This document shows positions 2,969 through 7,189 of a stretch of DNA of 64,000 bases, in pieces (the stretch's first letter is position 1; each line of letters starts with the position of its first letter). The DNA is from Celeribacter persicus (GTDB taxonomy: Bacteria; Pseudomonadota; Alphaproteobacteria; Rhodobacterales; Rhodobacteraceae): assembly GCF_003050785.1 (NCBI RefSeq), contig NZ_QAOH01000008.1:124001-188000 (forward strand). Direction: 5' to 3'. Both the position numbers and the translations under genes were made by a program. The notes beneath the pieces are model-generated. The model searched no databases. It was not told the origin of the DNA and saw only the letters and a list, made by a program, of their open reading frames with translations.

Positions 2969-5554
2969 ATGAGCAGTTTCAACGAAGACGACGCCTTCGA
3001 GGCGGCGGTAAGCCGCCCCTCCCTGTCCCAACTCGCGATGCAAGGCGCACGCGAGGCAGCTTTTGGTGCGCCCAAGAGTACTAAGTATCTGGATGATTTG
3101 AATCCTGCGCAACGTGAAGCTGTGGAGGCACTTGAGGGGCCGGTCCTTATCCTTGCTGGAGCGGGTACCGGGAAAACCAAGACGCTGATGGCACGCGTTG
3201 CGCATCTGATTACAACGGACAGCGCACGTGAAAATGAAATCCTTGCTGTGACCTTTACCAACAAGGCGGCGAAGGAGATGCAGGATCGGCTCAGACGGAC
3301 TCCATTTAGTTTGAATGAGCCCGTTCGCTGGATGGGAACTTTTCACTCAATCAGCGCGAAACTCCTGCGTCGCCATGCGGAGCTTGTGGGGCTCAAGTCC
3401 AATTTCACCATTCTCGACACGGACGACACGATCCGTTTGCTGAAACAACTGATCTCGGCGGCGGGCATCGACGAGAAACGCTGGCCCGCGCGACAACTCG
3501 CCGGCATGATCGACAGTTGGAAGAACCGGGCCCTCACGCCCTCTGCCGTGTCCGGCGGAGAGGGGAGTGAATTCAATGGCATGGGTGTCAAACTTTATGC
3601 GCAGTACCAGGAGCGTTTGCTGACGCTCAACGCCGTCGATTTCGGCGATCTGCTGCTGCATATGGTGGTGATTTTCCAGAAACACCCGGATCTTCTGGCG
3701 CAGTATCAGCGTTGGTTCAAATACATCCTCGTCGACGAGTATCAGGACACGAACGTCGCGCAATATCTCTGGCTGCGACTTCTCGCTGGCGGGCACAAGA
3801 ATATCTGTTGCGTCGGCGATGACGATCAGTCGATCTACGGCTGGCGCGGTGCCGAGGTGGGCAATATCCTGCGGTTCGAAAAGGATTTTCCGGGGGCGAA
3901 GGTCGTTCGTCTGGAACAGAACTATCGTTCCACTCCGCACATTCTCGCCGCCGCCTCTTCGGTGATCGCGGGGAACAAGGACCGTCTCGGCAAGGAGCTT
4001 TGGACCTCCGAGACCGAGGGTGAAAAGGTCCGGCTCATCGGACATTGGGATGGCGAGGAAGAGGCGCGCTGGGTCGGCGAAGAGATCGAGGCGCTGCATG
4101 GTGGGACGCGCGCGCGGCTGCGCAAATATTCCCTCGACGACATCGCCATTCTCGTGCGCGCCTCGCATCAGATGCGCGCTTTTGAGGACCGTTTCCTCTC
4201 CATCGGTCTGCCCTACCGCGTGATCGGTGGGCCGCGGTTCTATGAGCGGATGGAGATCCGCGACGCCATGGCCTATTTCCGCATCGTCACCCAGCTGGAG
4301 GACGATCTGGCCTTTGAGCGCATCATCAACACGCCGAAACGCGGCGTGGGTGACAAGGCGCTGCAAGACATCCAGATCACCGCGCGCAGCAATGGCGTCT
4401 CGCTGCTCGAAGGGGCGAAGATCGCGGTGGACGAGGGGCTTTTGAAAGGCAAGGCCAGGTCCGGGGTGGCGCAGCTCATCGCCGATATTGAGCGCTGGTC
4501 TTCTCTGAATGGGCCGCGAATTCGGTATGCCGTTGAAGAGGACGATGAGCCATTCGAAGAAGACGTGTTGTTTGAGGATGAGCGCACGTCGGATGATGAA
4601 TTGAGCGTGTTCGAAGATATTGGTTACTTTGGCGAGAGAGCGCGTCCTGCCCGCCCCAAACTCGAAGAAGAAGACGCGCTGGTCGAGGATGTCGCCTATG
4701 ACCCCGCCGAGATCGGTCATATCGAACTGGCCGAGAAAATTCTCGACGAGTCCGGCTATACCGCCATGTGGCAGAATGACAAGAGCCCTGAGGCGCCGGG
4801 ACGGTTGGAGAACCTCAAGGAACTGATCAAGGCGCTGGAACAATTCGACAATCTCGCAGGGTTCCTCGAACATGTCGCGCTGATCATGGACAATGACAGC
4901 GGCGAGGACGGCGAGAAGGTCACGATCATGACGCTGCACGGCGCCAAGGGGCTCGAATTCCCGGTTGTGTTCCTGCCCGGCTGGGAGGAGGGGCTGTTTC
5001 CCTCGCAGCGTTCGATGGATGAGAACGGCACCAAGGGCTTGGAGGAGGAGCGGCGGCTGGCTTACGTCGGCATCACGCGCGCCGAGGAACTGTGCACCAT
5101 TTCCTTCGCCGCCAATCGCCGGGTTTATGGACAGTGGCAATCGCAGCTCGCCTCGCGTTTCATCGACGAATTGCCGGTGGATCATGTGGATGTGGAGACG
5201 CCTTCGGGGCTCTACGGCGGCCAGCGCAGTCCGGCGACGTCTTACGAGGCCAGCCCTTCGACCTCTTTCGAGCAGCGGGCCTCCAAGGCCGATGTCTACA
5301 ATTCGCCGGGGTGGAAGCGCATGCAGGACCGGGCGCAACGCGCCGGTTCCCCGCGCAGCCCAGTGACGATTGACATGAAGGCCAATGCGTCTTTCACCCT
5401 TGGCGACCGGGTGTTTCACAAGAAATTCGGCTATGGCGAGGTGATGGAGATCGAGGGCGACAAGCTCGCCATCGAATTCGATCGCGCCGGGACGAAGAAA
5501 CTTGTGGCAGGATTCGTGGTGCCTGCCGATCAGGCGGGGGATGTGCCGTTTTGA
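2969..5554 (+). CDS. UvrD/PcrA-type ATP-dependent 3'-5' DNA helicase
   Basis: An 861-residue superfamily 1 helicase. Visible motifs: Q-motif LNPAQREAV (44-52), Walker A AGAGTGKT (63-70), VDEYQDT (about 253), GDDDQSIYGWRGAE, QNYRS (about 317), MTLHGAKGLEFP (about 653) and VGITRAEE. The last 55 residues (FTLGDRVFHKKFGYGEV onward) form the Tudor-like C-terminal domain that in PcrA/UvrD contacts RNA polymerase. The family unwinds DNA in mismatch and nucleotide-excision repair and removes stalled polymerase. An acidic, weakly conserved insert sits at about residues 515-570. The first 400 bases use more A/T-ending codons than the rest. The ribosome binding site before 2969 is weak. Confidence 0.9.
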   Translation: MSSFNEDDAFEAAVSRPSLSQLAMQGAREAAFGAPKSTKYLDDLNPAQREAVEALEGPVLILAGAGTGKTKTLMARVAHLITTDSARENEILAVTFTNKAAKEMQDRLRRTPFSLNEPVRWMGTFHSISAKLLRRHAELVGLKSNFTILDTDDTIRLLKQLISAAGIDEKRWPARQLAGMIDSWKNRALTPSAVSGGEGSEFNGMGVKLYAQYQERLLTLNAVDFGDLLLHMVVIFQKHPDLLAQYQRWFKYILVDEYQDTNVAQYLWLRLLAGGHKNICCVGDDDQSIYGWRGAEVGNILRFEKDFPGAKVVRLEQNYRSTPHILAAASSVIAGNKDRLGKELWTSETEGEKVRLIGHWDGEEEARWVGEEIEALHGGTRARLRKYSLDDIAILVRASHQMRAFEDRFLSIGLPYRVIGGPRFYERMEIRDAMAYFRIVTQLEDDLAFERIINTPKRGVGDKALQDIQITARSNGVSLLEGAKIAVDEGLLKGKARSGVAQLIADIERWSSLNGPRIRYAVEEDDEPFEEDVLFEDERTSDDELSVFEDIGYFGERARPARPKLEEEDALVEDVAYDPAEIGHIELAEKILDESGYTAMWQNDKSPEAPGRLENLKELIKALEQFDNLAGFLEHVALIMDNDSGEDGEKVTIMTLHGAKGLEFPVVFLPGWEEGLFPSQRSMDENGTKGLEEERRLAYVGITRAEELCTISFAANRRVYGQWQSQLASRFIDELPVDHVDVETPSGLYGGQRSPATSYEASPSTSFEQRASKADVYNSPGWKRMQDRAQRAGSPRSPVTIDMKANASFTLGDRVFHKKFGYGEVMEIEGDKLAIEFDRAGTKKLVAGFVVPADQAGDVPF

Positions 5555-5641: not shown

Positions 5642-6175
5642 ATGATCATCACCATCGAAGCTCTCGACAGTCAGTTCGCGGCAGCGACCGGTTCGAACGT
5701 GAATTCGGGATCAGGCACCTCGCAATTCGACCATCCGCCGACCTCGACAAACGCGTTGATCATCGAATCGCAACCGGGCGCTTTAGCTGTTGGAAAACCA
5801 CGAATTGATCGCCTGTGAGGGAGTGGTTTGCGAAAGCCTTTACCTAGGGCAGGTGGCGCGCGTTGTTCTGGGAGGAGGGAGGCCCATCCTCCGGGCGGTG
5901 TGGATGCGGGGTCGGCTGAGAGCTTTCCCGATCTGTTCATGGGGCGTCTGGCACAGAGCCCGGCCCGGCCTTTTCTGACCTCGAAACAGGGCAGTGCATT
6001 GATCCGCCTGATTTCCGGCGCACCGGCGCGTGAGCGGGTGATGTTGCTGCGTCCGGGGCAAAAGGATGCTCGGCCTTACCGTTTCGACCCGATGAAATAT
6101 GTCGGGGCGCCCGGGCTCGTGGGATTGCCAGCGTTTGAGCGGGTGTTGGAGCGGGCTGCCCGATCTCATGCCTGA
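5642..6175 (+). pseudogene. Decayed Hint-domain protein gene (internal deletion plus frameshift)
   Basis: A plausible start (GAGG five bases before ATG 5642) opens a 58-residue reading frame beginning MIITIEALDSQF that stops at 5816-5818. The next frame over (about 5787-5870) reads LLENHELIACEGVVCESLYLG, resembling the end of a Hint domain as found in roseobacter Hint proteins. After a purine run (GGAGGAGGGAGG, 5871-5882) coding character returns to the first frame: FPDLFMGRLAQSPARPF to the stop at 6173-6175. The simplest reading is a Hint-protein gene that lost its middle and gained at least one frameshift. An intact Hint gene lies at 56471-57616. I assigned this by recognition, not by alignment. 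Confidence 0.45.
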
Positions 6176-6266
6176 ACGGTTGGAACCTCAGGGGCGCTCC
6201 GCATGGTGGAACAGTCTCCCTTTCATGCGATGAAATTTGAACGATAACGAGGAATGACAAAAAGCA

Positions 6267-6306
6267 AGACACCCGCGCCCAGGGAGGAGGAGGGGCGCGG
6301 GTGTCT
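6267..6306 (-). ncRNA. CcsR-like hairpin 8, also the likely operon terminator
   Basis: A perfect 14-bp GC-rich stem, 6267-6280 with 6293-6306. Loop 6281-6292, motif 6282-6290. In transcript direction it is followed by CTTGCTTTTTG, so this last copy looks like the intrinsic terminator of the whole unit. Confidence 0.8.
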
Positions 6307-6314
6307 CTTGGTAT

Positions 6315-6343
6315 CGGGCCCCAAGGGAGGAGGAGAGGACCCG
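6315..6343 (-). ncRNA. CcsR-like hairpin 7
   Basis: A short stem, 6315-6322 with 6336-6343, including G:U pairs on the minus strand (6319/6339, 6322/6336). Loop 6323-6335, motif 6325-6333. The weakest stem of the array. Confidence 0.65.
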
Positions 6344-6360
6344 TATTCTGAAAAAGAAAT

Positions 6361-6394
6361 GCGGCGGTGCCAGGGAGGAGGAAGGCACCGCCGC
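6361..6394 (-). ncRNA. CcsR-like hairpin 6
   Basis: A perfect 11-bp stem, 6361-6371 with 6384-6394. Loop 6372-6383, motif 6373-6381. In transcript direction it is followed by a U-rich run (TTTCTTTTT, 6351-6359), so some transcripts may end or be cut here. Confidence 0.8.
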
Positions 6395-6403
6395 CTTCAG
6401 TCA

Positions 6404-6434
6404 CGGCCCCTCAGGGAGGAGGAGAGAGAGACCG
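6404..6434 (-). ncRNA. CcsR-like hairpin 5
   Basis: A 9-bp stem, 6404-6412 with 6426-6434, including two G:U pairs on the minus strand (6407/6431, 6409/6429). Loop 6413-6425, motif 6414-6422. Between hairpins 4 and 5 sits a small GGGC-GAAA-GCCC hairpin (6444-6455) without the motif. Confidence 0.75.
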
Positions 6435-6464
6435 ATCTCTTGTGGGCTTTCGCCCGGTATAGGT

Positions 6465-6496
6465 GCGACGATGCAGGGAGGAGGTCGCATCGCCGC
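6465..6496 (-). ncRNA. CcsR-like hairpin 4
   Basis: A 10-bp stem, 6465-6474 with 6487-6496, one U:G pair on the minus strand (6468/6493). Loop 6475-6486, motif 6476-6484. Confidence 0.75.
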
Positions 6497-6503
6497 TCTG
6501 GTC

Positions 6504-6535
6504 TTCAGAGCCAAGGGAGGAGGAGAGGCCCCGAA
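6504..6535 (-). ncRNA. CcsR-like hairpin 3
   Basis: A 9-bp stem, 6504-6512 with 6527-6535, with two U:G pairs on the minus strand (6509/6530, 6507/6532). Loop 6513-6526, motif 6515-6523. Confidence 0.75.
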
Positions 6536-6548
6536 TTCCGATATCTGT

Positions 6549-6584
6549 TGCGGCAGCCCCAGGGAGGAGGAGGGGACTGCCGCA
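6549..6584 (-). ncRNA. CcsR-like hairpin 2
   Basis: A 12-bp stem, 6549-6560 with 6573-6584. The one non-Watson-Crick position (6557/6576) is G:U on the minus strand. The 12-base loop is 6561-6572, motif 6562-6570. Confidence 0.8.
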
Positions 6585-6587
6585 GGT

Positions 6588-6620
6588 ATCAGGGCCCAGG
6601 GAGGAGGAGAGGGCCGTGAT
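6588..6620 (-). ncRNA. CcsR-like hairpin 1 (first in the transcript)
   Basis: The stem pairs 6588-6597 with 6611-6620 with one mismatch (6592/6616). The loop is 6598-6610 with the motif at 6599-6607. It begins 9 bases after the stop codon of the DUF1127 gene. Confidence 0.75.
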
Positions 6621-6629
6621 GTCTATTCT

Positions 6630-6845
6630 TTATTGGCCGTAAGCGGCCTCGTAAGCCACGGCCCGGATTGACGCGCGGGACATTCCGAGGTCGGCGAGTT
6701 CGCGGTCCTTCAGGCCCGACAACTCAAGCACGGTCTCACGATAAACCCGATAACGCGCGAAACGTTCCGCGAGGGATTTGAACAGCCCGCCGAAAGAGGC
6801 GGAGGACGCCGGAGCGGCACTGCGAATGTCGTTTGCGTAAGCCAT
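6630..6845 (-). CDS. Small DUF1127 protein, CcaF1-like
   Basis: A 71-residue basic protein. The DUF1127 (YjiS-like) core covers about residues 26-66 and includes YRETVLELSGLKDRELADLG. The C-terminal part contains DLGMSRASI, the usual end of this domain. In R. sphaeroides the DUF1127 protein encoded ahead of CcsR1-4 (CcaF1) is an RNA-binding protein affecting sRNA maturation and RNA turnover. Placement ahead of eight CcsR-like hairpins suggests the same job here. A heat-shock-like promoter candidate lies 150 bases upstream. Confidence 0.85.
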   Translation of the reverse strand: MAYANDIRSAAPASSASFGGLFKSLAERFARYRVYRETVLELSGLKDRELADLGMSRASIRAVAYEAAYGQ

Positions 6846-7189
6846 AAGACTTTCAACCTTAGATGTGCGTGCGGGATAGCCCGCGGTTTGCGCCGCCGTG
6901 TCCTGTCCTCACTGGCATTTCGCCAACGTCTCGCTTCGGAGACAAACCGCTTTGGAGCGATCAAGGGTGCAAGCCTCGGCTGCTTTCGTTGAATTCAATA
7001 TCGGGGAATTGCTGCGAATGCACAATCCGCCCTGTCGGCATTGCCGCTATGCAGAAAATGCATGACCAATGCTGACCTATTTTTCGTGTCGGAGAGCGCA
7101 TATCAGGCCTTTGGCTTCAAACCGCTGTGGAAATAGGGCAGCAAAGGGCCTATTTCGGAGAGGACCGGAAGTGGCGGAAAGGAAAGCAT
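6846..7189. other. Intergenic region between DUF1127 and mrp
   Basis: 344 bases without a convincing gene. It serves as the divergent promoter region. Besides the RpoH-like candidate there is a short GCGGG-ATAG-CCCGC hairpin near 6871-6884 in the presumed 5' leader of the DUF1127 transcript. I see no further structure. Confidence 0.5.
6997..7025 (-). promoter_or_regulatory. Candidate RpoH-type promoter for the DUF1127/CcsR unit
   Basis: On the minus strand TTGTGC (7020-7025), a 13-base spacer and CCCCGATATT (6997-7006) resemble a heat-shock sigma promoter (a TTG-type -35 and a CCCC-type -10). It lies about 150 bases before the DUF1127 start. The related R. sphaeroides unit is RpoHI/RpoHII dependent, but this site is matched by eye only. 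Confidence 0.35.

Follow-up and report, generated by a model that had tools for sequence, protein, structure and literature searches.

The window, the 64-kb stretch of DNA analysed here, contains an orthologue of ccaF1-CcsR1-4 that probably produces an array of hairpins in its 3' UTR, which would be processed into anti-Shine-Dalgarno (anti-SD) RNAs and gated by both a stress sigma factor and PhaR, the PHB regulator. The array is of a known kind; the new element is the set of PhaR-like sites in its promoter.

The array lies on the minus strand at ~6265–6622, extending slightly beyond the 6267–6620 given in the first-pass annotation. It consists of eight hairpins, and each loop is an exact copy of CCUCCUCCC. 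In the direction of transcription, the loops of hairpins 1–8 are located at 6599–6607, 6562–6570, 6515–6523, 6476–6484, 6414–6422, 6373–6381, 6325–6333 and 6282–6290. The motif CCTCCTCCC occurs ten times in the window, always on the minus strand, against an expectation of 0.74 (dinucleotide shuffles, of which 0/100 reach ten), and eight of these copies fall within 6282–6607. RNA folding placed each of the eight motifs in the loop of a stem built from its flanking arms; hairpin 5 adopts its own stem only with the loop kept unpaired, and its free fold is different. With the loops held open, arms paired with their own partners had a mean energy of −18.2 kcal/mol, compared with −8.3 kcal/mol for arms matched with those of other hairpins in the array, which bears out the earlier description of eight minus-strand hairpins with differing stems and a common loop. 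The stem energies alternate between weak and strong (−13, −24, −13, −18, −14, −26, −13 and −25 for hairpins 1–8, loops open), and the same alternation is seen in the array of C. johrii. Hairpin 8, which is followed by TTGCTTTTTG, likely forms the transcript end as well, acting as a putative terminator; a simple terminator scan near this hairpin returned only a short alternative stem (6276–6264).

An Rfam scan of the window yielded nothing at the gathering threshold. At looser limits, four matches to CcsR1 (RF02791; 28.8–37.8 bits) tile the array on the minus strand, covering two hairpins each: unit 1 at 6545–6622 (35.1 bits, E 5.5e-07), unit 2 at 6460–6538 (28.8 bits, E 4.1e-05), unit 3 at 6356–6432 (37.8 bits, E 8.7e-08) and unit 4 at 6264–6354 (29.5 bits, E 2.5e-05). 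Because all these matches (E 4.1e-05 to 8.7e-08) score below the CcsR1 gathering threshold of 65.3 bits, we do not file the array under Rfam CcsR1. At the same looser limits, ar14 (RF02344) reached 58.5 bits at best (E 3.7e-10), just under its gathering score of 58.8. The covariance-model search suggested by the first-pass annotation therefore recovers both families, in each case at sub-gathering scores. The three-hairpin ar14/NfeR1 model of Sinorhizobium has the same loop as the window array, with diverging stems. NfeR1, however, is reported to be an sRNA of three hairpins transcribed from a promoter of its own that LsrB and NtrC control, whereas the window holds what would be a 3' UTR array behind a DUF1127 gene.

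A pattern built from the CcsR1 consensus led to 22 named records, with C. johrii, L. azotoformans and Rhodobacter sp. SW2 standing for the R. sphaeroides locus. Each of these (C. johrii on two contigs) has eight hairpins with spacings in pairs and a DUF1127 stop codon 18–19 nt before the first loop, and the CcsR1 model scored 104–106 bits on the loci of C. johrii (one contig), L. azotoformans and SW2. The window shares with these relatives the order of a DUF1127 gene followed by four two-hairpin units with eight loops, together with RpoH-like promoter elements and, as described below, two further boxes: O2 in exact form and O1 with at most one mismatch. It differs from them in its stems, in its sub-gathering CcsR1 score, in the distances between units (47, 62 and 48 nt, against 66, 76 and 73–74 nt in C. 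johrii and L. azotoformans) and in its −10-like element, CGATAT, at whose place C. johrii has CCATGT.

The gene directly upstream of the array (6630–6845, minus strand) encodes a CcaF1-like DUF1127 protein of 71 aa (Pfam PF06568, E 1.6e-11), as the first-pass annotation had proposed, and shares 45.7% identity, across 70 aa, with the protein from the orthologous locus of C. johrii. A DUF1127 match was found at 74/77 array loci, with the stop codon 17–29 nt ahead of the first loop in 59 of the 77. The gene order in the window is uvrD-type, array, DUF1127, mrp and a gene that, from its sequence, we take to be mraZ. Among the 22 named records, mrp is a neighbour in 21, mraZ in 17 and the uvrD-type gene in nine. 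Both mrp and mraZ are common to the loci of the window, C. johrii, L. azotoformans and SW2; the uvrD-type gene is common to the window, L. azotoformans and SW2, and none was seen within the C. johrii stretches. The upstream DUF1127 gene, the divergent-stem hairpins and the mrp and mraZ neighbours shared with CcsR loci all agree with the cuckoo/CcsR-type identity first suggested. From the four two-hairpin units, the DUF1127 gene and the mrp/mraZ synteny it follows that the window locus is the orthologue of ccaF1-CcsR1-4 (CIN1), with an equal number of hairpins, and thus a further member of the cuckoo kind.

The stems of the array covary across the host genus. We aligned 19 host-genus arrays and evaluated a structure derived from the window sequence, itself one of those aligned. 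This structure is paired in 86.0% of cells, compared with 82.6% in shuffles (0/500 as high), and sliding the pairing partners drops standard pairs to 37–46%. Changes on both sides were found in 28/91 pairs, against 17.5 in shuffles, and the covariation score of the structure was unreached by any shuffle. Further pair types were no more frequent than in shuffles of these 19 arrays (159/500 as high), and hairpins 1, 7 and 8 are paired in just 71–73% of cells. The idea that loops are conserved while stems diverge is thus upheld by the pairs with changes on both sides across the genus.

The promoter region upstream of the DUF1127 gene contains two conserved boxes on the minus strand, 31 nt apart. 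O1 (CTGCATAGCGG, 7044–7054) differs by one mismatch from CTGCN3GCAG, the PhaR site of R. sphaeroides, and O2 (TTGTGCATTCGCAGCA, 7010–7025) lies over a −35-like TTG. The −10-like CGATAT (6998–7003) is found 16 nt past the −35-like TTGTGC and would complete a promoter, from which a transcript may start near 6990. A sigma-70 promoter scan of the window found nothing; the R. sphaeroides RpoH factors are reported to require the −35 TTG (PMC3441632).

In its exact form (TTGTGCANNYGCAGCA), O2 was present upstream of 68/76 array loci and in 0/76 downstream stretches (≤700 nt), the 76 loci being the 77 given without L088, which was too short, and with L122 in place of L042; C. johrii is counted twice and the host genus 19 times. 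When each genus was represented by a single locus, exact O2 was present in 29/37. Five of the eight loci without exact O2 have one mismatch, two have two mismatches, and L049 has nothing near. Searched as ATTGTGCANNYGCAGCAW, O2 was found in 126/198 family genomes, compared with 1/198 for the reversed pattern. A promoter pattern that fixed the −10 as well matched just 36/75 loci and was abandoned for the box without the −10, which gave the 68/76.

O1, with the core CTGCATRGCAG among array loci, is conserved just ahead of O2. It was counted where a looser O2-type box (TTGTGCNNNYGCAGNA) was present, that is, at 33/36 loci from other genera, 19 from the host genus and 21/22 named loci. Exact O1 occurs at 22/33, 3/19 and 14/21 of these, respectively, and O1 within one mismatch at 31/33, 19/19 and 21/21. 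Random 60-nt windows gave 0/560, 0/332 and 0/394 for exact O1, and 28/560, 6/332 and 16/394 within one mismatch. The centres of O1 and O2 are 30.5–31.5 nt apart at 68/71 loci (28/31 in other genera, 19/19 in the genus, 21/21 in named records).

Loci with both boxes differ from other O2 sites. Among 70 loci with exact O2 (L166–L235, one site twice), 43 have the O1+O2 pair, and all 43 are followed by hairpin motifs (39) or a DUF1127 match (the other four); hairpin motifs were found at 4/27 exact-O2 loci without the pair. At L207, L208, L224 and L228, the pair is followed by a DUF1127 gene, and no hairpin motif was found within 1.7 kb. O2 without O1 is also found ahead of genes without a stated PHB role, and other O2 sites lie at genes for transhydrogenase alpha, DgcN, a citrate-lyase-type protein and sugar-binding proteins. 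As separate observations, exact O2 stands just before pyruvate carboxylase-type genes at L215 (by NCBIfam) and at L173, L205 and L218 (by first residues only), and seven loci (L196, L204, L207, L208, L220, L224 and L228) have an O2 box ahead of a DUF1127 gene and lack an mrp match in the vicinity, some of them with O1 and some with one hairpin.

On the basis of these sites, we propose PhaR, the regulator of PHB, as a gate on DUF1127-hairpin RNAs, acting through a PhaR-type operator pair held three helical turns apart over the stress promoter of the locus. The R. sphaeroides PhaR site is given as CTGCNNNGCAG (CTGCN3GCAG); phasin genes are described as repressed by PhaR, which PHB granules draw off, and the S. 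meliloti PhaR sites tested by gel shift include that of mmgR, CAATTGTGCACCGCAGCATTA (PMC12542648). The Bradyrhizobium PhaR site is reported as TGCRNYGCASMA (PMC6201568). The mmgR site contains the two O2 half-sites, separated by one base fewer; the resemblance of the S. meliloti MmgR sRNA to the window locus concerns this PhaR-bound promoter site.

The PhaR domain PHB_acc_N (PF07879) was detected above cut-off in the host genome and in 14/14 others of the set. Tandem CTGCN3GCAG was found upstream of phaP, the classic PhaR target, in 15/15 phaR loci of the first set (six from the host genus, host included), any such site in 4/45 control pieces, and the tandem again in 32/44 family genomes of an enlarged set, one of whose 45 loci could not be oriented. 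An O2-trained weight matrix found a strong site, above the best of 26 controls, in 3/15 phaR loci (L151, L154 and L155), and the phaR loci scanned bear the CTGCN3GCAG form instead. In the host, the phaP promoter has two CTGCN3GCAG sites and then a third site of O2 form, TTTTTGCAAGCGCAGCA. The host phaC and phaZ genes also have an O2-type box between them. Of the 13 O2 near-matches in the host genome outside the array locus, two fall in the pha cluster. Two other genomes (L232 and L234) have exact O2 between phaC and phaZ. In the literature searched, we found no report joining PhaR with CcsR or DUF1127, nor, among those on PhaR in R. sphaeroides, one that deals with this locus, although one may exist elsewhere.

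The best-surviving alternative is that O1 and O2 are the sites of another TGC-type regulator, or an extended stress-sigma promoter, and that the locus is unrelated to PHB. We regard this as possible but doubtful. O2 departs from the published PhaR sites in having N4 instead of N3 and a left half of GTGC rather than CTGC, and it overlaps the −35 TTG needed by the R. sphaeroides RpoH factors (PMC3441632). By our reading, an O2-type box lies within ~1 kb of phaZ in just 2/40 genomes (G032 and G038), and most O2-only sites are at other genes, such as those for pyruvate carboxylase and transhydrogenase. A sigma factor, however, would account neither for the fixed GCAGCA within the spacer nor for the placement of O1, three helical turns further upstream. 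The core of O1 corresponds to the PhaR motif of R. sphaeroides, in the form present before phaP, and O2-type boxes recur in the host phaP and phaC–phaZ promoters and, as exact O2, at phaC–phaZ in L232 and L234. As for the pyruvate carboxylase sites, this enzyme appears in a list of S. meliloti proteins affected by PhaR (PMC12542648).

A further feature of the pha region is a hairpin of the array kind. In the host genome, a single CCUCCUCCC hairpin that folds is located between phaP and phaR (G000:C6:170864–170872; L155, L132). Across 44 phaR loci, which include genomes selected for bearing arrays, CCTCCTCCC was found upstream of phaR on the sense strand in 12 and on the antisense strand in none. 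Eleven of the 12 motifs are capable of forming a stem (weakly in L295) and are located 141–314 nt ahead of the conserved region at the phaR start, so that a single hairpin behind phaP is present in roughly one in four genomes examined (11/44). In L161, the motif is located elsewhere upstream of phaR and has a weak stem.

Returning to PhaR gating as the preferred reading, the window locus would produce a single minus-strand transcript starting near 6990, with the DUF1127 ORF followed by four CcsR-like units in the 3' UTR, each a weak and then a strong stem, and ending at hairpin 8. In R. sphaeroides, ccaF1 and CcsR are reported to be co-transcribed from an RpoHI/RpoHII promoter and processed by RNase E, and CcaF1 to affect CcsR levels and maturation (PMC10253847). 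By homology, RNase E would cut the window transcript into short RNAs with the help of the DUF1127 protein, and their UCCUCCUCCCU loops may pair with Shine-Dalgarno sequences in many mRNAs and so prevent their translation. In NfeR1, the three loops are described as redundant, and an ntrB reporter is no longer silenced once all of them have been mutated (PMC10746234). The anti-Shine-Dalgarno-like, conserved character first ascribed to the loops is matched by a motif that is exact in all eight hairpins while the stems change with compensation; the stems may drift in this way because they need only hold the loop. Transcription would be doubly gated, by a stress sigma factor at the RpoH-like TTG and −10 and by PhaR at O1/O2, where PhaR is predicted from the sites to repress in the absence of PHB and to release when granules titrate it.

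The hairpins could instead act in cis, stabilising or ending the DUF1127 mRNA or serving DUF1127 feedback, with no action on other mRNAs. Their place in the 3' UTR, the last one at the likely transcript end, and the reported influence of CcaF1 on CcsR levels and maturation (PMC10253847) would fit such a role. Yet a generic stem would suffice for it, and here the loop is kept while the stems change with compensation; moreover, the known relatives are described as working in trans (PMC10746234). Four loci (L176, L202, L222 and L227) also speak against it. They keep O1, O2 and hairpins, with the first hairpin 107–126 nt past O2, and have no DUF1127 match and no room for the gene; they are natural deletions in which the RNA is retained without the protein. 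We therefore consider purely cis action unlikely.

Perfect complements of the 9-nt loop were not enriched in the host genome (53, eight of them the array, against 54 for the reversed pattern). We inspected 43/45 non-array host sites of GGGAGGAGG, the other two being in the window at 4983 and 5870, and in 10/43 a start codon with an open frame of ≥45 aa lies 2–14 nt downstream. As the 9-mer is not enriched, perfect loop complements were dropped as a target list, and no target is named. The separate GGGAGGAGG at 5870 falls within a window ORF (5828–6175) that has no Pfam match and is possibly no gene or a decayed one.

The first-pass annotation had read the eight hairpins as a doubling of the four copies known from R. 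sphaeroides. We take the R. sphaeroides RNA RS0680a to be CcsR1. This RNA has two stem-loops, with the motif in each (PMC3927594, section 2.7), and two stem-loops in each of four sRNAs therefore give eight hairpins in CcsR1-4. Given this, the two-hairpin Rfam units and the eight hairpins at each of the orthologous loci in C. johrii, L. azotoformans and SW2, we reject the doubling; it is a matter of counting hairpins against sRNAs. Arrays were found in 19/20 genomes of the genus sample (the genome without one is 85% complete), and eight is the commonest count in the host genus, host genome included (exact-motif counts of 5 in one array, 6 in two, 7 in four, 8 in 11 and 9 in one). A recent doubling of a CcsR cluster under selection for dose is a highly improbable origin of the array: copy number varies in relatives, and tandem duplication is visible as near-identical blocks in G184 and G384, but the R. 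sphaeroides relatives also have eight hairpins, eight is usual in the genus, and the four-hairpin ancestor that a recent doubling of the locus needs was nowhere seen.

Array size nevertheless varies widely across the family. Calling an array at three motifs minimum, a cut-off of our own, we found at least 146/394 family genomes with a motif triple (gaps of 25–55), a lower bound because these gaps miss wider arrays, that of C. johrii included. By our count from the triple table, 32 family genomes, host included, have six or more same-strand triples, which means at least eight hairpins if they form one array; the reversed control also matched G329 (seven times) and G379 (six times). In a class sample, the triple-motif search matched the host genome alone and 0/384 other genomes, four of them from the same family. 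The largest array, with 26 hairpins (L122; G184:C1:334949–336119), contains a repeated three-hairpin block; a near-identical two-hairpin block is repeated in G384, and other genomes picked for size have 20, 17, 16, 15 and 14 hairpins. The same hairpin array is carried by two contigs of one genome (G004:C10 and G004:C48), either a duplication or an assembly artefact. Numbers of up to 26 hairpins in relatives are compatible with dose tuning, and the wide range of copy number provides a natural series for dose.

If PhaR does gate the locus, PHB would be an input signal for CcsR/cuckoo RNAs, which in the accounts cited here have been tied to stress sigma factors, and CcsR RNAs would be linked with the pyruvate/acetyl-CoA node that they reportedly affect. 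On balance, we favour a wider reading in which the anti-SD hairpins of Rhodobacteraceae may be an output arm of PhaR, such that PHB state and stress together would determine the dose of a translation brake that evolves in size by block duplication.
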